Assembly (NCBI GenBank): GCA_937974565.1
Contig: CALJWL010000005.1
Coordinates: forward strand, 1 to 64,000
Length of the DNA: 64,000 nucleotides
Direction: 5' to 3'
Source of the DNA: an uncultured Arenicella sp.
GTDB lineage: Bacteria; Pseudomonadota; Gammaproteobacteria; Arenicellales; Arenicellaceae
Shown here in pieces: positions 1-57,933 of the stretch. The notes under the pieces were generated by a model. The model made no database searches. It was not told the origin of the DNA and saw only the letters and a program-made list of their open reading frames with translations. The stretch's first letter is position 1. Every line of letters starts with the position of its first letter. The translations under genes and the position numbers were made by a program.

Positions 1-400
1 AAGAAATCGCTCCTTTCGGGTTATTTTCTTTTTATTCTCGTAGGCTAAATCAGCAAAGCTTGGCTGTTTCATGATTGCTATTGGTTCGGATTAATCGGTC
101 TTGTGCATTATACTAAATTCGTTTTTTGCAGAGACTCCCTAGTTTTGTAAATTCTAGCCCATTCAAAACTGGCTAATGACCTTACTGTCATTTATTGGAA
201 TTTTTCAAAATCATGCCGTGTTGGGTATTGATCACGCATCGGTTTTATTATTGCACTCCCCTCCTTGGTTCTCGATGCTCAGTAATATTTTTATGATGTG
301 CGTTCGGCCTGAACTGCTCAGCTTGAAAAGCTTTGATTGGGTAGACCGTCACTTTGAAGTCGACTAATAATTGCCTATTTGTCTCGGGGTTTATTGTGTA
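1..400. other. Left edge, no supported gene
   Basis: No convincing gene is visible here. A 63-codon open frame at 176-367 on the plus strand has no recognisable domain and no clear ribosome binding site, so I do not call it. The stretch lies downstream of the leftward toxin gene, so it may hold that operon's 3' end or the tail of a gene outside the window. Confidence 0.5.
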
Positions 401-9769: not shown

Positions 9770-10402
9770 TTAACAACCTTCTTCTAGGCGATACGATATC
9801 TTTTCCACCTTCCCATAAATCGTCACAGCTTGCCCTCCTTGAACACTGGGCTTATAGCGCGCGCGCTCAACCGCTTGCATGGCACTTTTGTGAAACGCTC
9901 GATGACTGCTGTCTAATACGGCCACATTAATGGGTATGCCGTCAGCATTAATATCAAACTGAACAGTGACATGGCCACATAAACCTCGACGCGCTGCGGC
10001 TTCAGGAAACTGTGGAGAAATAGGCACCAAGGGCATGCCACTGGGTAAACCGTCAGCGATAATCAGTGGCGGACCTTCGTACTTTGTTATCGGAACAGCA
10101 ATTGCATCAACAGGTGACGTGATATCAGTCATAACCTGGGCTTCTGGCACGACGGGTTTCGCCTCAATCACCGGTTTAATGATTTCTTTAACCTTGGGAG
10201 GGTCATCCTTAGGCACAAATGAAATCGGCGGTAATTTGAATACTCTTTCCTCTTCCAGTGTTGGCATTTCATTGCTGATAAGCTGCGTCATCAAAAACAG
10301 CAAGCCTATTGTCATGCCCCCTGCACCGAATAAACTCATGCTGCGCTTTACGATTCCAACGTCAAGCCCTAATGGCTGACTGACATTTGAGTTTGCAATC
10401 AT
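9770..10402 (-). CDS. TonB-family energy transducer
   Basis: A 210-residue protein with one membrane anchor at about residues 25-43, a proline- and charge-rich periplasmic spacer at about 55-115 (PPKVKEIIKPVIEAKPVVP), and a TonB C-terminal domain from about residue 128 (PQFPEAAARRGLCGHVTVQF, then AMQAVERARYKP). Such proteins carry proton-motive energy from an ExbBD motor to outer-membrane receptors. No exbB, exbD or receptor gene is adjacent, so its partner is unknown. An AGGAG box precedes the ATG. Confidence 0.85.
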   Translation of the reverse strand: MIANSNVSQPLGLDVGIVKRSMSLFGAGGMTIGLLFLMTQLISNEMPTLEEERVFKLPPISFVPKDDPPKVKEIIKPVIEAKPVVPEAQVMTDITSPVDAIAVPITKYEGPPLIIADGLPSGMPLVPISPQFPEAAARRGLCGHVTVQFDINADGIPINVAVLDSSHRAFHKSAMQAVERARYKPSVQGGQAVTIYGKVEKISYRLEEGC

Positions 10403-47226: not shown

Positions 47227-47376
47227 GTCTCTCCCGGGCTTTTTTCCCGCCGTGTAACCTTGCTTTATGCCTTACTTGAATGTGCGTATCGCTGCATCAT
47301 TCCCGCTTGCTCAAGGTCGATTGCTCTCGGACCAGTCACTGCCATAAACGTTGCATGGCAGCCGGAACCCTAGCGA
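47227..47376 (-). promoter_or_regulatory. Guanidine-I (ykkC) riboswitch
   Basis: The leader of the operon contains the conserved ykkC blocks in order on the minus strand: CTAGGGTTCCGG, then a stem CTGCCAT/ATGGCAG, then CTGGTCCGAGAG, and near the 3' end ACACGGCGGG, an A-rich loop and GCCCGGGAGA. These are the strongest landmarks of the guanidine-I class, which turns genes on when guanidine binds. The segment just after it (AATGCCTT at 47212-47219) can pair with 47267-47273 inside the aptamer and may be part of the switching structure. No T-run follows, so control could be translational. Confidence 0.9.
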
Positions 47377-47417
47377 TCTATTGATAAATTGTCTGTCGAG
47401 ACTTCTGTTTAATTAAA

Positions 47418-50134: not shown

Positions 50135-50248
50135 TCATGCGGCTTTGCTTGACTCAGGGCTATGGTAAAACATTTGTTCGTACTCTGCTGGTGGAATATC
50201 ACCAATGGGTCTGAGTAGCCTTCGATTATTGAACCAGCCTAGTTCGCC
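50135..50248 (-). mobile_element. IS3-family transposase OrfB C-terminal remnant
   Basis: Translation on the minus strand gives GWFNNRRLLRPIGDIPPAEY and a further QMFYHSPESSKAA before a TGA stop. The NNRR-L---IG-IPPAE-E--Y pattern is the C-terminal end of IS3-family integrase-type transposases. Upstream codons no longer resemble a transposase, so only the last 35 or so codons remain. It lies directly upstream of the PIG-L gene. Confidence 0.8.
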
Positions 50249-50318
50249 CTGAATTGATCGGGGTTGCGGAAATAGCAGCAAGGGCCGGCAATTCGTTCAG
50301 TTGTGTGGTAAATGCGTG

Positions 50319-51089
50319 TTAATGAGCCTTAACCAACTTGGGCGAATTTTTTTCTAACCATATTAAGGTTTCTAAATACCCCCCAAGGCGGCGTAGGTAG
50401 GCCGGCGACAGGTCTTGCATGCGAGCAAGGGCTTTAACACTGAGCATGTGTGGGTTGTGAGGGCCAGGGTTGGCGGGGTATTCGCTAATCGCCTGTTCTA
50501 ATAATGAATCGATGTGAGCGTGCTTGGTGGATTCACGAAAAAGGCGCATTGACTGAAGTTCTAACTGTTTTGCATCACCGCCTTTAATCACACACGAAGC
50601 ACTCGACGCAATATTGAGTATGCTTTGCTCTTGCTGATCAAGCCGCTCTTCAAACGACGTTTTCTCGGTTAACGGCTCTGCATCATGATCAATATGCTCG
50701 TCAATAGCGCCTATCAAACTTCGGAGTCCTTCAAGCCGGTTGGCACGGTGTTGCGCCCGCTCAAGTTGAACCAACAGGCGTTCTAAACACTTAAACTCAT
50801 TGGCTGAAAACAGTAACTCGGCTTCACGTCCGGATTCTGGGAAATCGGCCAGAATAGCGCTCATTTGTTCGCTTGCAGCTTTTTTTTGAAGTCGGTATCG
50901 CTCACGATATTCTAAAAAAGCCGTTGAAACTCTGTCGTGTAAGTCTCTATTGTCGCGATTTTCAACCAAACGAAGCCTTGAGTACAAGCCTTGAATATAG
51001 GCATAGCCCGCCGGATCAAAATTCTCAGTCTTTAGAGACGTTAAACTTTCAAATTCAGCCTCTAATTTACCTATATCAAGCTCGCTCAC
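50319..51089 (-). CDS. DUF2894-like protein of the motor-like operon
   Basis: A 256-residue cytoplasmic, largely helical protein with no signal or membrane segment. Charged coiled regions run from about 40 to 160. The C-terminal part (LSPAYLRRLGGYLETLIWLE) is the best conserved by eye. I match it from memory to DUF2894, a family of unknown function whose genes sit beside MotA/MotB-like pairs. It begins with GTG, 8 bp after the OmpA/MotB-like gene. It could be a cytoplasmic partner of the channel's tail. Confidence 0.7.
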   Translation of the reverse strand: MSELDIGKLEAEFESLTSLKTENFDPAGYAYIQGLYSRLRLVENRDNRDLHDRVSTAFLEYRERYRLQKKAASEQMSAILADFPESGREAELLFSANEFKCLERLLVQLERAQHRANRLEGLRSLIGAIDEHIDHDAEPLTEKTSFEERLDQQEQSILNIASSASCVIKGGDAKQLELQSMRLFRESTKHAHIDSLLEQAISEYPANPGPHNPHMLSVKALARMQDLSPAYLRRLGGYLETLIWLEKNSPKLVKAH

Positions 51090-51097
51090 AACTTACG

Positions 51098-51799
51098 TCA
51101 CTCAACTTGCTCGTTTAGCGGTATAAACCCATCCGATTCACGCTTTGTAGATTCAATGCGTGACCCAGAGCCTTGCGACTCGGATTTTCTCGGAACGGGT
51201 GCCATCTCCACTCGACGGTTTTGCGCCCTACCTTGTTCAGTTTCATTAGAAGCGATGGGGCTTTGCTCACCAAAAGCCGCGGCAAAAACCAATGAATTAG
51301 GCATACCTTCTTGAATTAGTACTCGAGTTACAGTCAACGCACGCTGTGCTGAAAGCTCCCAATTGTCTTGGAAATTTCTATGGGCACCTCTAATGGGTTT
51401 ATCATCGGTGAAACCACTGATCATCAACATCTGATCTCGGTCATCCAGAAACACCTTCAAGGGTGCAACTAAACTTCGTAATAACGCTCGCCCCTGTGGC
51501 TGTAATTGGTCAGAGTTAACCGAAAATAACACATTGCCGCGTATTCCAATGCGCCCGTTTTCCAAGGTGACGCGACCGTTCTGTAACGGATCAGCCAAAG
51601 CTTGCTCTAACGCCATGCGGCGTTGCTCTTCAGCTTGGCGTTTTGCGGTCTCAGTTTTCAAAGACTGGGCCAATTCAAGTTGAAAACCTAAGGCCCAGAT
51701 TAACAATAAGACAAACACGCCGACCAAACCCGACATCAAGTCGCCGAATATGGCCCATATCGGCGGGGCGTTAGTAACGCCTTCGTCTAACTCATTCAC
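51098..51799 (-). CDS. MotB/OmpA-like peptidoglycan-anchored protein
   Basis: A 233-residue protein. One membrane helix at about 14-36 (WAIFGDLMSGLVGVFVLLL) contains Asp20 where MotB and ZorB carry their ion-binding Asp. After a coiled linker the OmpA domain (about 95-215) has LMISGFTDDKPI, NWELSAQRALTV and RAQNRRVEM, the peptidoglycan-binding pattern. It starts with GTG overlapping the stop of the MotA-like gene. Together they have the parts of an ion-driven stator unit. Confidence 0.88.
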   Translation of the reverse strand: MNELDEGVTNAPPIWAIFGDLMSGLVGVFVLLLIWALGFQLELAQSLKTETAKRQAEEQRRMALEQALADPLQNGRVTLENGRIGIRGNVLFSVNSDQLQPQGRALLRSLVAPLKVFLDDRDQMLMISGFTDDKPIRGAHRNFQDNWELSAQRALTVTRVLIQEGMPNSLVFAAAFGEQSPIASNETEQGRAQNRRVEMAPVPRKSESQGSGSRIESTKRESDGFIPLNEQVE

Positions 51800-53637
51800 A
51801 AGCCCGCCTCTTTCACGGCCAACTGTTCTGGCTTTTTGGTATTCAGCGCTGCGATGATTTGTTGATGTGAAAGCAAATTATGGTCGATAATTTCACGTGC
51901 TTGAGCCACATAATACGCCAACTGTTCATCGCTGCGGCTATTAGACTGCTCAAGTGAAGCTTCGATGCGCGTTAGATTTTCAATTAATTGAGTATTCGAG
52001 TCTTTAAAAAGGGAGACTGCCGCACTAAAGGATTCACTCATGCTGGCAATATCGACACTACTGCTGGAAAGTTGCTCAGCCGCACCAATGAGCTTCGAGG
52101 ACTCCTCGGCAACTTGCTCACCAAACTGAACGCCCACTTTATTCAAGGCCTCTGTTGAGTGCTTAACTAAAGCATCAATGGCCTCTCTCTGACCTTTTGA
52201 ACTGTTTTCAAGGGTCGTGGACAATGTTTCGAATTGCTTCATTAATCGAGTTCTTTCGTCTAATAATTCGTTATCACGCTCGAAGTTATTGCTCAATTCA
52301 GCGCGCAGTTTTTCCATCACGTCTGCGGCCGCTTTAGGGGTTTGTGATGCCGTTTCCATTAAACGCGTCATCGGCGCTTCAAGAGACTGACCCAACGTGG
52401 TTAAATTATTAGAAAGTGTTTCTTCCAATGTACGCATCTGCTGAACCGTGTCAGACGCCATTTTCTCACTCTGATGTCGCTGCTGCTCTAACCACTGATG
52501 GCTTTTTTCCTCGAAGCCTTGCAAGAGGGTGGCGGTGCTTTTTCGCAAGTCATCACCAACGCAAGACATAGAATCAGTCACGGTTTTCATCAGTTCGCCA
52601 GTCAGCGAATCTTGCTGATTAATGCTACGACTAAATGCCTGACTTACTTCTGACCCCATACTCTTGGTTACCTCACTTAACTCGGTCATGTGCTGCTGAT
52701 TTGCGGCCACAATGGTTTGTTGAATTTCGTCTACTGAACTGGCAACGCTCGCCATGGTTTGCTCAGTGATGGGCCGCAGGTTGTTAACCATTGCTTTTTC
52801 GTTTTCCTCCAATGAGGCTCTTAATGATTGCCCCATCGATGTCTGAAAATCCTTATGTAACTCGACCAACTGTGACTGAGTTTGTTGTTGATTAGTCAAT
52901 AAGTTCTCACTGACCTTATCACTCATTTTTTCTAAATTTTTGGCTAACTCGGTTAACTTTTGCACAACCTCAGGTAAAACTTCGGCCTGATTTTGCACCG
53001 CTTGGAAGGCCATTTTTTGCTGATGCCCCAAAGAGTAATGACTAAAGTCATCAAGCAATTTAGAATCCAGCTCATGACTGGCTTGCAATCGCTCACGCCG
53101 GCTTAAGGTGGATAAAAGCCCCAACATCGCGGAAGCTGCCACACCGGCTACCGATGTACCAAAGGCTAAGCCCAAGCCTTCAATCGGGGCGGCCAAGCCT
53201 GCACGAATTGCCTCCAGCTCACTTGTGCCTTCCAGCGCTACTACCGCTCCTTTAAGCGTGTCGACCATGCCAACAAATGTGCCTAGCAAACCTAGCATCA
53301 CTAGCAGCCCCACTAAATAAGGCGTAAGCACGGGCGCCGGCAAGCCCACTCGTTCTCCATGGATTCTGTTGCGGACTGCATTTCTCAAACTTGGCGAAAC
53401 GCCTTGCAACCAGGCTGGCAAGTCGTCGATTGGGCCGTGAACTTGGCCCAACGCTGCAAGCAAGGTGTTTGATGCTCGGCGAAACAAGCAAAGCTCCCAC
53501 GAGCCTATAACGTAAACCACGCCAATAAGAATTGTGACACCCAAGCCCAGTAAATCGCTCCCTAAAAAGACGTGCCCGATCCAAACGATCGCTAATGCGC
53601 CAACCAAAAAAGCCGCGCCAAATAAATATCTAGTCAT
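51796..53637 (-). CDS. MotA/TolQ/ExbB-like channel with long coiled tail (DUF802 type)
   Basis: A 613-residue protein. Helices lie at about 5-24, 28-50, 103-124 (LVGLLVMLGLLGTFVGMVDT) and 155-178 (GLAFGTSVAGVAASAMLGLL); the last two carry the MotA/TolQ/ExbB proton-channel pattern. From about 180 to 600 there is a long helical tail rich in Gln, Ser, Glu and Leu with methyl-accepting-like repeats. It resembles ZorA's tail in layout. I recall DUF802 proteins with this design. ATG 53637 chosen; a TTG four codons upstream is open. Overlaps at both ends with neighbours show tight coupling. Confidence 0.85.
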   Translation of the reverse strand: MTRYLFGAAFLVGALAIVWIGHVFLGSDLLGLGVTILIGVVYVIGSWELCLFRRASNTLLAALGQVHGPIDDLPAWLQGVSPSLRNAVRNRIHGERVGLPAPVLTPYLVGLLVMLGLLGTFVGMVDTLKGAVVALEGTSELEAIRAGLAAPIEGLGLAFGTSVAGVAASAMLGLLSTLSRRERLQASHELDSKLLDDFSHYSLGHQQKMAFQAVQNQAEVLPEVVQKLTELAKNLEKMSDKVSENLLTNQQQTQSQLVELHKDFQTSMGQSLRASLEENEKAMVNNLRPITEQTMASVASSVDEIQQTIVAANQQHMTELSEVTKSMGSEVSQAFSRSINQQDSLTGELMKTVTDSMSCVGDDLRKSTATLLQGFEEKSHQWLEQQRHQSEKMASDTVQQMRTLEETLSNNLTTLGQSLEAPMTRLMETASQTPKAAADVMEKLRAELSNNFERDNELLDERTRLMKQFETLSTTLENSSKGQREAIDALVKHSTEALNKVGVQFGEQVAEESSKLIGAAEQLSSSSVDIASMSESFSAAVSLFKDSNTQLIENLTRIEASLEQSNSRSDEQLAYYVAQAREIIDHNLLSHQQIIAALNTKKPEQLAVKEAGL

Positions 53638-53642
53638 AAAAA

Positions 53643-54374
53643 TCAACAATTGTGTTCATTAAGCGCCTCATACAAGCCAAACACAGGCTGTAAGCGCACA
53701 TCTAATTCGGCAAGTAACATCTCTCGCATGTCCGCGTGAAATAACAAAATCCATGCAGGTTCGTCACTCTCAGTGTTGTTGTGGCTGAGTAACTCACTGC
53801 GGTTGGCCAAATCTTTAAAACGATGACCCAACAACTTGGGAATCACATTGAATAACTTGCGATTAGAGCCATCAAGGCTTTCTTCAAGTGTTTGGTCAAG
53901 AACAGCCAGTTGATGCAGCCCTGCCGAAGCCGCCGACACCCAGCTACGGACACTCACTCGCAACTCTTTCACAACAACAGCCAGTTCCATTTGATGGGTA
54001 ATGTAAAAACGTTGATAAGGCTCAAAGGTTTTTAGCGCTTCGGGGCGAACCCCTGCTGCCACGCTGGGAATGCGGGTTGGTGCATCTCCTTGGTTCAAAG
54101 AAAAACTGTCTTGAATGGAACGAATGGCCCGAGCCCGTTTATCTAAAACATATTGCTGCACTTCATCGCAACTCAATCTTTGAGACTGGCTGGCCTCCAC
54201 TGGCATGGTTTTTATTCCACGGGCCAGGGTCATGGAACCAGAGACCCCAACCATGTGCCCTAATTTCTCAGCCAAGTTGTACTCAGTCACGCTTAATTTC
54301 CTCGCAGACAGTTCAATGAGTAAGCGCACCAAACGGCAACGATCTTGCAAGGCTGAGAATCTTCTTCGCGTCAT
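53643..54374 (-). CDS. DUF3348-like protein, first gene of the motor-like operon
   Basis: A 243-residue soluble helical protein without signal or membrane segment. The start (RRRFSALQDRCRLVRLLIEL) and the end region (LLFHADMREMLLAELDVRLQP) are the most ordered parts. I match it from memory to DUF3348, found with DUF802 and DUF2894 genes in beta- and gammaproteobacteria. ATG 54374 is used; a TTG two codons upstream is open. Its stop overlaps the possible TTG start of the channel gene. Confidence 0.7.
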   Translation of the reverse strand: MTRRRFSALQDRCRLVRLLIELSARKLSVTEYNLAEKLGHMVGVSGSMTLARGIKTMPVEASQSQRLSCDEVQQYVLDKRARAIRSIQDSFSLNQGDAPTRIPSVAAGVRPEALKTFEPYQRFYITHQMELAVVVKELRVSVRSWVSAASAGLHQLAVLDQTLEESLDGSNRKLFNVIPKLLGHRFKDLANRSELLSHNNTESDEPAWILLFHADMREMLLAELDVRLQPVFGLYEALNEHNC

Positions 54375-54831
54375 AACCAAACCAATGTATCACCCAAACC
54401 CGGCGCATCAAAATAGCGTAAATAAAGTTCCGCATTCTACGTGAGTTTCGCTAAAAAATTCAATAAAAGAGGGGTTAAGCAACGCGGTCCATTAGCAGGC
54501 CAGCGTCATTTAATGCCATGTCACTTTGCCTTTCCTAAGCAATCGACAACACTTAAATTTTTATTCAACAATAAGCGCTATCTGGCTTGATTTTAAAAGC
54601 GCCAGCGCGATAAAAAAGAATGAAAAGACAGGCATGGCGAGCCAACAGTAATTCCTGTTTTACTTTGGCTCGCACCAATAAAGAACAGACATAATGAGGC
54701 GACAGGCGTAATGCCATCCATCACACCTGCCCACTAAATCTGAAAGATATGACGTGAGTCTTATGTGATGTACATTACGCTCAGAACTTCGCCATCAATA
54801 TTCGAGGCCACTGATTTACTGAACGCTTCAT
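54375..54831. other. Promoter region of the motor-like operon, no gene seen
   Basis: About 457 bp with no supported gene on either strand. A 9-bp inverted repeat (GCGAGCCAA at 54637-54645 and TTGGCTCGC at 54665-54673) with a nested AACAG/CTGTT pair forms a long hairpin. It lacks a T-run, so a terminator role for the leftward gene at 54832 is only possible. The rest should hold the promoter of the DUF3348 operon. Confidence 0.5.
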
Positions 54832-55221
54832 TTATCGTGCCCAATTAGGCTTTGTTTCAATTTTATTCTCGAACAGATATTCCATCTTACAAGGCTTGCC
54901 ATCACAAGTTGCTGGGTCGAATTTTGTGTTAGAAATAATGTAATTCAACATAGTTGCTATGTTTTTAGAGGGCGCTTTATAAACCGTGACACTCTCAACG
55001 CCACCGCTCTCATCAATCATTGCTATGGCAAGCACATCGCCTTCTTTACGTAAATCGAGATTCGCTTTGTACAGCGGACGATAAATTACTTGCGTTCCTT
55101 CACTGGGAAAAGGAGGGTACTCACTCTCTTTTAGGTCACCGTATGCATTCTTTACACGCTGTTTAAGTGCGGGCGAAAGTTCAGAATAAGATTTATCGAA
55201 CGGCACATCTGAATGAAACAA
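54832..55221 (-). CDS. Small TonB-C-like protein, start uncertain
   Basis: A 129-residue frame with a pattern like a TonB C-terminal or similar alpha-beta domain: YPPFPSEGTQVIYRPLYKAN, then DVLAIAMIDESGGVESVTVY, then ISNTKFDPATCDGKPCKM. It contains one Cys pair (about 109 and 114). There is no ATG; the frame would start at TTG 55221. The open frame continues upstream about 30 codons without a start or signal peptide. It may be the 3' part of a damaged secreted protein. Divergent from the next gene. Confidence 0.45.
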   Translation of the reverse strand: MFHSDVPFDKSYSELSPALKQRVKNAYGDLKESEYPPFPSEGTQVIYRPLYKANLDLRKEGDVLAIAMIDESGGVESVTVYKAPSKNIATMLNYIISNTKFDPATCDGKPCKMEYLFENKIETKPNWAR

Positions 55222-56134: not shown

Positions 56135-56540
56135 ATGATAAAAAATATGGGTTTAGTACTTTTTTGGGGTTCAACATTCGCTGCATCGGTGTCTTTAAGT
56201 TCAGAAGAGACGATAACAAAACCAACTCAGCAGCCAACCGATAACACAACACCAACAGACCTCTTCAACAGCCCAGCCATTGGCTGGACGAACAGCTTAT
56301 ATAGACCCCAAAACGGGTGAATTAACTTCACAGAGTACTACACCGGCTGGCACGCAGAAAACAGTTCAGAAGGCCGCCGCACCCATTAAATACACAACGT
56401 ATTCTGACGGCACAGTGGGCGCAAAATTAGAAGGACGTTTCCACACAAGTGTGGTGGCTACCATTAATTGCAACGGAACAATTACCGCTGAACATTCGGA
56501 GAACCGGGTTGAAATACAAAAGGCGTGCGAGGAGAAATAA
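56135..56540 (+). pseudogene. Small secreted protein, split by a frameshift
   Basis: The first frame (56135-56320) begins with a signal peptide (MIKNMGLVLFWGSTFAASV) and a Thr/Pro-rich segment. After about 56275 the coding sense moves to the +1 frame: RTAYIDPKTGELTSQST, then ending in a Cys-containing region at 56540. The TAYIDPKTGE block is typical of small secreted proteins and joins well to the first part. One inserted or two deleted bases near 56270-56285 explain the break. Two separate small genes are less likely. It is followed 2 bp later by the metalloprotease gene. Confidence 0.6.
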
Positions 56541-56542
56541 CC

Positions 56543-57933
56543 ATGCAAAAACCAACGCCCTTTTTATACGCTAGGTTATTCAGCCTACTGACAGCGGTCG
56601 TCGTTTCCTTAAGCGCATTCTCGGCTCATTCAACCAATATCATGCTAATTAATAACGATGGGGCGAATGAAGGGTTCAATAGCAATCAACCCCTCTTCGC
56701 CAATCAAACTGGAAACAGTGGCGCCACACTAGGACAACAGCGCCTAAACGTATTTCAAGCCGCGGCTGATTACTGGGAATCTAAAATCGACAGTCCGGTT
56801 ACCATTCGCGTTGGCATTAACTTCGACCCATTGTTCTGCGGACCAAACAGCGCCACGCTGGGTTCCGCGGGCCCAAACTCGGTGTTTAGAAATTTTGCTA
56901 ATGCGCCTTTAGACAATACTTGGTACGTAGAAGCACTAGCAAACAGCTTAGCCGGGGTAGACTTAGAACCAAGCAGCGACGACATCAGCGCCAGCTTTAA
57001 CAGCGCTATTGACAACAACAATAATTGCCTAAACGGAACTAATTGGTGGCTAGGAATCGATGCTCCAGCCCCTTTTGGCACCATCAGTTTGTACGATACC
57101 GTTTTACATGAATAGGACACGGCTTAGGCTTTCTCAGCCTTGTTAGCGATAACGGCGCCCTTCTTAGCAATCTAAATGATGCTTTCACAAACAATTTATT
57201 TGATCAAGACATTGGGCAATCGTGGCCACTAATGAACAATGCACAACGCGCTGAGTCAGCAACTAATGGCCCCAACCTTACATGGAGCGGCAACAACGCA
57301 AACAACAACAGTTCGCACTTAAATGCATCAGCAAGCCGCACAAATGGGAGCATTCGAATGTTTGCACCACGCTCATTTCAACAAGGCTCATCCGTTTCGC
57401 ATTGGGACACTTCCCTCTCTCCGGATGAATTAATGGAACCAAGCGCTACCCCAACTTCCGACGACAGGTCGACAGTCCAGTTACTGAAAGATATAGGCTG
57501 GAGAATTTTCGAAGGCCCAGGGCAAGTTGCGTTCACGGCTAATAATTATAACGTCGTCGAAGATAGAAGGCAGGCTGACATCGCAATATCACGCTCTGGT
57601 GGTTTTGACGGTGCAATTTCAGTCACGGTCACGTCTGCTGATATAACGGCGTTAGCGGGATCTGATTACACCCCGGTTAACGAAATTGTGAGTTGGGCTG
57701 ACGGTGAATTTGACATACGAACCGTTACAGCACCAATCGTTGATGATGGTCTCTCAGAGCGGCCCGACGAAACGGTACGTATTATTCTATCAAACCCAAC
57801 CGGGTCAGCCACTATTACCGGGCCGAGTTCAGCGACACTGACCATTACTGACCCTCAAGACGACGATTTTCTACTATTGATCATTCCCGCTATTTCAGCC
57901 GCGGTCAAAACGAAAGCTAACGCCCCTCAATAA
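56543..57933 (+). pseudogene. Secreted zinc metalloprotease with Calx-beta domain, frameshifted
   Basis: Starts at ATG 56543 after GAGGAGAA, with a signal peptide of about 30 residues. The first frame reads into VLHE and then a TAG at 57113-57115. One base is missing: restoring it gives HEIGHGLGF, a metzincin-type HExxHxxGF zinc motif, and the frame continues without stops to 57933. The rest includes FTNNLFDQDIG and MNNAQRAESATNG, and a Calx-beta domain (about the last 120 codons: FTANNYNVVEDRRQADIAIS). The final 20 residues are hydrophobic then basic, a possible sorting tail. As written it makes no active protease. Confidence 0.8.

Follow-up and report, generated by a model that had tools for sequence, protein, structure and literature searches.

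Four consecutive genes on the minus strand of the window, by which we mean the whole stretch of 64,000 nucleotides analysed here, are near certain, judged by sequence comparison, to form a complete copy of Zorya type III, a named system. We put the probability that they constitute a complete type III anti-phage operon, working as an ion-driven motor with two adaptors in the manner of the model described below, at about 0.7. The locus itself is a further copy of a system already named, and what the analysis adds concerns type III itself, which is seemingly the least studied Zorya: in the available text of the type III literature, the only role offered for its two DUF proteins is a proposed one, as regulators of ZorAB.

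Gene content and identity of the operon

All four frames are intact and run from 54374 to 50319 in the order DUF3348, MotA-like, MotB/OmpA-like and DUF2894. The first gene (53643..54374, minus strand, ATG at 54374) encodes a DUF3348 protein of 243 aa that matches Pfam PF11828 at 1.1e-45 and PADLOC PDLC00658 at 5.4e-50. The second (51796..53637, minus strand, ATG at 53637) is zorA of type III, which encodes a MotA/ExbB/TolQ-like channel subunit of 613 aa (PADLOC ZorA3, PDLC00647, 5.6e-214); the residue numbers of ZorA used below refer to a 617-aa form that starts at an upstream TTG at 53649. The third (51098..51799, minus strand, GTG at 51799) is zorB of type III, whose product of 233 aa has an OmpA-like peptidoglycan-binding domain (PADLOC ZorB3, PDLC00651, 2e-105; Pfam OmpA, 5.2e-19), and the fourth (50319..51089, minus strand, GTG at 51089) encodes a DUF2894 protein of 256 aa (Pfam PF11445, 4.3e-28; PADLOC PDLC00652, 2.8e-29). 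The operon is confirmed as it had been observed in an earlier sequence-only reading of the same DNA, with which the coordinates, frames and Pfam families agree. That reading had described the four genes as overlapping, which holds only for the zorA/zorB pair (4 bases, when the ATG start of zorA is used); the other neighbouring genes are separated by 5 and 8 bases.

The arrangement is not a product of chance, because the identical four-gene set was found in 49 of the 51 loci that hold ZorB. The two exceptions, L049 and L086, lack DUF3348 and start at a contig end inside the operon. A possible but weak promoter of the sigma-70 type lies about 60 bases before the DUF3348 start (54434..54463, minus strand; 9/12 consensus matches), in a region where the consensus scan returned 8 sites and chance alone would give 5.5 (sd 2.0). 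After the DUF2894 gene, at 50139-50318 on the minus strand, there is a broken frame that resembles, by its motif, what we take to be the end of an IS3-type transposase; a 41-residue piece of this frame had no match in Pfam.

The type III models of PADLOC match all four proteins at the values given above, and ZorA3 was the best of 15 families for the MotA-like protein. The features of type III are present, namely ZorA3, ZorB3 adjoining zorA, and flanking genes for the DUF3348 and DUF2894 proteins. The likeness to ZorAB of Zorya systems that had been seen in the sequence is therefore right and amounts to membership. The statement that no function is assigned to this gene set proved wrong: Payne et al. 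described 6,401 such clusters in 2021 and named them Zorya type III (PMC8565338). In that study, the set from Stenotrophomonas nitritireducens was cloned into E. coli BL21-AI, and its inducible expression from a plasmid significantly reduced the plaquing of at least one tested phage and protected liquid cultures against phage PVP-SE1 at an MOI below 0.1. The system is cited again in a 2025 paper (PMC11890865). The idea of an undescribed envelope system, which the sequence-only reading had favoured, is ruled out by the PADLOC type III matches together with this published function of the four-gene set. On the other hand, its view that the roles of the two DUF proteins and the effector step are unsettled agrees with the available text of the literature on type III, and its interpretation as a whole is partly supported. 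By analogy with the protection conferred by the published relative, a role of the window copy against phage is likely. Because the labels ZorF and ZorG are reversed between the papers and PADLOC-DB 2.0 (in the latter ZorF is DUF2894 and ZorG is DUF3348, opposite to the text of Payne 2021), we prefer the DUF names.

Conserved residues of the motor and the ZorA tail

The hydropathy analysis placed hydrophobic segments at residues 9-45, 111-129 and 161-179 of ZorA and found a single one in ZorB; the DUF proteins are devoid of such segments. Asp20 of ZorB lies at the start of its sole hydrophobic segment (peak window 21-39), which, together with the OmpA match, bears out the earlier description of this protein as a MotB/OmpA-type partner with a membrane Asp and a peptidoglycan-binding domain. 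The conservation measured in our alignments is inflated, because near-identical relatives (Zhongshania, Accumulibacter) are grouped in them. Read in this light, D20 was invariant in 51/51 aligned ZorB sequences, the window's included, as were W15, F18 and G19 and, in the OmpA-type binding stretch, N146, L149, S150, R153 and A154. The ZorA residues T124, T165 and S166 were each present in 53/55 sequences, with a gap in the other two. Types I and II have a ring of Ser/Thr residues, and by comparison with it these three residues of ZorA would be expected along the route of the ions. In those types, peptidoglycan binding by ZorB, the ZorA tail, ion flow and D24 of ZorB have been shown to matter (PMC11890865).

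The tail of the window ZorA comprises 409 residues past residue 208, in keeping with the MotA/TolQ-type channel with a tail of more than 400 residues that had been described from the sequence. It is the shortest among 49 complete ZorA sequences (55 minus six truncated ones), in which the tail ranges from 409 to 777 aa. The hydrophobicity of the window tail repeats with a period of 3.66 residues at a power of 5.16, a value reached by 0/200 shuffled sequences, whose maximum averages 1.38 (sd 0.29), and 50/50 ZorA tails tested peak at a period of 3.62-3.66. This periodicity fits a helical bundle and lies near 11/3, presumably the repeat of straight helical bundles. Conservation along the tail, expressed as the mean majority in 51 sequences with groups of close relatives among them, was 0.38-0.41 at residues 301-400, 0.71 at 401-460, 0.56 at 461-550 and 0.70 at 551-600. 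This profile suggests that the tail may consist of a length-variable spacer with a conserved end for docking.

The DUF3348 and DUF2894 proteins

AlphaFold predicted helices only for both proteins, with a mean pLDDT of 85.6 and a pTM of 0.83 for DUF3348 (alignment of 41 sequences) and a mean pLDDT of 86.2 and a pTM of 0.53 for DUF2894 (alignment of 43 sequences). Searches with PDB sequence profiles gave a best E value of 0.42 for DUF3348 and of 0.046 for DUF2894, the list for the latter consisting mostly of F-BAR, stathmin and arrestin chains, and Foldseek returned no match to either model at E 0.001 or better. In VIA-align, DUF3348 was matched best by a designed helical bundle (Z 8.6, 158 residues at 4.4 Å) and residues 3-139 of DUF2894 by a helical domain from Borrelia (Z 9.0, 137 residues at 5.1 Å); Z values of this size are said to occur commonly among helical bundles. 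Neither by sequence nor by fold was there a solved structure that resembles either protein beyond this common level, which does not make the folds new. A profile comparison of the two proteins showed no similarity to each other.

The invariant residues of both proteins are mostly Leu, Pro, Gly and aromatic, and few are polar or charged: Q130, E225 and R229 in DUF3348, and N212 in DUF2894, with Q153 and E154 nearly invariant. The end of DUF2894 has a net positive charge in 41/43 sequences and a charge of +4 or more in 31/43. The end of the window protein is short and carries only +2 over 12 residues, and it therefore argues weakly for nucleic-acid binding by this copy. Since no enzyme was detected in DUF3348 or DUF2894 by sequence or by predicted fold, type III appears to have no counterpart of the ZorD helicase or the ZorE nickase. 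Type III as a whole contains no enzyme detectable in sequences and models, which does not prove that an enzyme is absent. A conserved fifth gene that might be the missing effector was not found when 538 flank ORFs from 52 loci were clustered; among the 40 widest clusters listed, the widest spans 11 loci, and in our judgement these 40 clusters either represent common enzyme families or do not extend beyond related genera.

That no predicted nuclease was found in type III would also suit a mechanism in which phage infection opens ZorAB, the resulting ion leak depolarises the membrane and kills the infected cell, and the DUF proteins act as gate-keepers. A ZorAB proton channel that causes abortive infection was an early proposal for Zorya, and Payne et al. 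suggested that ZorAB of type III is regulated by its two DUF proteins (PMC8565338). However, no Zorya-mediated depolarisation was found in types I and II according to the available text of PMC11890865, and a pore alone would hardly account for a tail that is 409-777 aa long and conserved in its distal parts. We consequently regard the ion leak as quite improbable.

Genomic neighbourhood

No flagellar or Tol family was found in the ten window ORFs scanned with Pfam, as the sequence-only reading had stated, and its inclusion of Ton genes in this statement requires a caveat. The ORF just upstream of the operon (54832-55221, minus strand) reaches 19.8 bits against TonB_C, short of the cut-off of 24.6, and an unmistakable TonB_C protein is encoded at 9770-10402, 40 kb away. 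The weak match, combined with the MotA/MotB-like core, might point to an energy transducer of the Tol, Ton or flagellar type that is unrelated to defence. However, the best profiles of the core proteins are ZorA3 and ZorB3 by a wide margin, the matches to the NCBIfam MotD/MotB models are far under their cut-offs (for example, 98.2 vs 283 bits), and the Pfam MotA_ExbB model found six other places in the window's genome, the window zorA not among them. In addition, the ORF at 54832-55221 did not cluster with the flanks of other loci in the 40 widest clusters listed. The PADLOC, NCBIfam and Pfam results led us to reject the transducer as a candidate, and we consider this reading strongly disfavoured.

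When the ten window neighbours were compared with PADLOC at E 0.01, nine matched no family, and the tenth, an ABC-transporter ATPase, matched seven (best mad3, 8.8e-35), which we judged to be generic matches. Among 125 flank ORFs from 32 type III loci, 36 PADLOC families were matched at 1e-10 (25 of them listed, with two members each; family members were examined singly for 6/125 ORFs). Two protein kinases, in the flanks of L050 and L091, alone match 27 and 32 families and explain most of the 36. The best 25 of 117 Pfam families by frequency in the type III flanks are ordinary metabolic, regulatory and membrane families. The neighbour survey that had been suggested from the sequence thus found few defence genes in the sampled flanks of type III.

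As a control, we used five other Zorya loci from four genomes, found with the NF033915 ZorA profile. Their 20 flank ORFs gave 9 PADLOC matches, including type I restriction subunits and a ZacC, and three of the 9 look generic. Defence genes clearly surround two of the five loci, in samples that are small and not matched with the type III set. At least one control locus is of type I (EH signature and SNF2 helicase). In genome G004, which belongs to the window's genus, a Zorya type I locus (L197, G004:C1:410500-430000) lies beside type I restriction genes, and the type III operon of this genome is located elsewhere.

Other features of the window include a Guanidine-I riboswitch at 47229-47384 on the minus strand (81.4 bits). 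The genes that follow it on the same strand, down to 37194, look from their translations like those of a transporter, urea carboxylase-associated proteins and a carboxylase/amidohydrolase. On the plus strand, at 56525-57933, a metalloprotease-like gene seems to have been split into two successive ORFs, of which the second contains a Calx-beta domain.

Distribution and stability of type III

DUF3348 was found in 8/369 genomes drawn across the class, three of which belong to the window's genus. It was also present in 7/61 relatives, all 7 within the 18 genomes of the window's genus and one of them a fragment at a contig end, and in 38/119 genomes of one other family, f24. Among culturable marine bacteria, strains of Zhongshania and Spongiibacter carry the operon. 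In the ZorB tree (90 sequences, support values not given), three Desulfobacteraceae copies are nested inside gammaproteobacterial ones, which suggests that type III may have been transferred between phyla. No match to DUF3348 was found in 50,697 phage records, and no ZorB was confirmed in viral contigs (8 pattern matches). In the plasmid collection, 42/292 records cover 80% of ZorB, and the 20 listed are replicons of 0.37-3.5 Mb.

In the window's genus, type III is patchy (7/18 genomes). The operon lies within about 14 kb of ptsI in the window and in two relatives, G013 and G011, whose PtsI is 81% and 80% identical to that of the window, compared with 68-71% in the others; in the other four carriers of the genus, ptsI and the operon are on separate contigs. 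The ZorB tree, for which no support values are given, joins the window to G011 and joins G013, the closest by PtsI, to G004, and this placement of G013 counts against simple vertical descent of the operon in the three genomes.

In genus g299 of family f24, which is probably Xanthomonas according to a list in PMC11890865, DUF3348 was present in 20/20 genomes with one match each, and the full four genes in 19/20. Cas1 was found in 7/20 of the same genomes, 5 of them with strong matches. The type II ZorA profile matched below its cut-off in 20/20 of these genomes and above it in 0/20, the best match lying each time beside the DUF3348 place. In 19/20 genomes the operon adjoins a transketolase gene, compared with 0/20 fetched f24 loci outside g299; the full four genes were present in 20/20 further f24 loci fetched outside g299. 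The transketolase neighbour was checked by tblastn. Longest-ORF calling picks antisense frames in GC-rich flanks, and the flank counts for GC-rich loci are therefore approximate.

The exception in g299 is G554, which has an empty transketolase site and a different type III copy elsewhere; this divergent copy groups away from its genus in the ZorB tree (90 sequences, no support values given). Eight relatives match G554 on both sides of the site, the similarity ending at 10206-10210 and resuming at 10366-10372 of the fetched stretch; for the remaining eleven, similarity close to the site is confined to the side of the transketolase gene. The flank matches therefore indicate that the operon and up to a few hundred bases on each side are replaced by about 160 bases in G554. 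In G557 (L127, 7340-9004) the locus has collapsed: the reading frame of ZorA continues into the last part of DUF2894, and there is no zorB. On the basis of these two genomes, type III is dispensable and replaceable. Overall, type III in g299 is old and stable, though open to loss and replacement.

The presence in 20/20 g299 genomes and the few defence genes in the sampled flanks would be expected of a resident trait no less than of a defence gene. The main rival to the anti-phage reading is thus a resident machine of the cell envelope, in which an ion-driven motor would sense or repair damage to the wall, and protection against phage would be a by-product or appear only on overexpression. The contrast with Cas1 in g299, where the four genes and the transketolase site are nearly constant, is consistent with such a machine, as are the flank matches that come mostly from two kinases and the lack of an enzyme-like fold in either DUF protein. 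It agrees less well with the patchy occurrence in the window's genus and the rarity in the class, with the collapsed locus of G557 and the exchange seen in G554, and with the published protection against phage in a heterologous host (PMC8565338). We therefore consider the resident machine unlikely, if somewhat less so than the ion leak.

A working model of type III

In the anti-phage reading, which we prefer, ZorA and ZorB would assemble in the inner membrane into an ion-driven motor of 5:2 stoichiometry, by analogy with the motors of types I and II, and the OmpA domain of ZorB could grip peptidoglycan. An infecting phage would disturb the wall, whereupon ZorB would grip and the channel would open, as may be the case in types I and II. 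By the same analogy, ions would pass the ring formed by Asp20 of ZorB and the Thr/Ser residues of ZorA, and this passage would turn ZorA together with its long helical tail. The step particular to type III, whose DUF proteins were modelled as single chains, would be the docking of both helical DUF proteins as adaptors on the conserved distal part of the tail. The adaptors might then produce the output themselves by acting on nucleic acid, for which DUF2894 would use its basic end, or they might recruit a host effector.

A more far-reaching proposal is that type III is a resident, largely vertical and enzyme-free form of immunity, in which a wall-anchored ion motor with a tail of variable length and two distal helical adaptors stops the phage through the basic DUF2894 end acting on nucleic acid or through a host effector. 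We offer this proposal tentatively, as a possibility that the odds do not favour. If it is true, type III would be a mechanically driven defence of another kind than types I and II, which are armed with nucleases, and if type III protects without a nuclease, ZorAB motors can couple to different outputs. The stable and mostly single-site occurrence in g299 makes the role of an always-present motor directly testable.

Relation to known systems

With ExbBD and TolQR the operon presumably shares a conserved Thr, which in ZorA falls within the later hydrophobic stretches and would line the ion path, and it differs from them in that its B subunit has an OmpA-type domain. With MotAB and PomAB it would share a 5:2 motor architecture, and it has the OmpA-like C-terminal domain in common, MotB being the best PDB sequence match of ZorB (6ysl_A, 3e-19), and it is set apart by its long coiled tail, by its own profile families and by neighbours among which no flagellar family was found in the scan.

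The Zorya types I and II share with the window operon the ZorA/ZorB core, the long helical ZorA tail, the membrane Asp and the OmpA-like domain, and the window proteins cross-match the PADLOC models ZorB1 (1.8e-22) and ZorA1 (4.3e-15). The 5:2 motor architecture has been solved for Zorya I and II (PMC11890865). These types differ in having an EH-signature/helicase pair or an HNH nickase, in place of which the window has two all-helical DUF proteins. Neither ZorC (EH signature) nor ZorD (helicase) of type I was found in the operon proteins or in the ten ORFs scanned with each of Pfam and PADLOC, and there was no HNH match indicative of the ZorE nickase of type II in the operon proteins or the neighbours scanned.

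The operon belongs with Zorya type III (PMC8565338), with which it has the same four families in common and of which the window copy is a member. Compared with the other type III copies, it is distinguished by the shortest ZorA tail of the 49 and by a short, mildly basic DUF2894 end, and compared with the tested Stenotrophomonas copy, by a different host genus.
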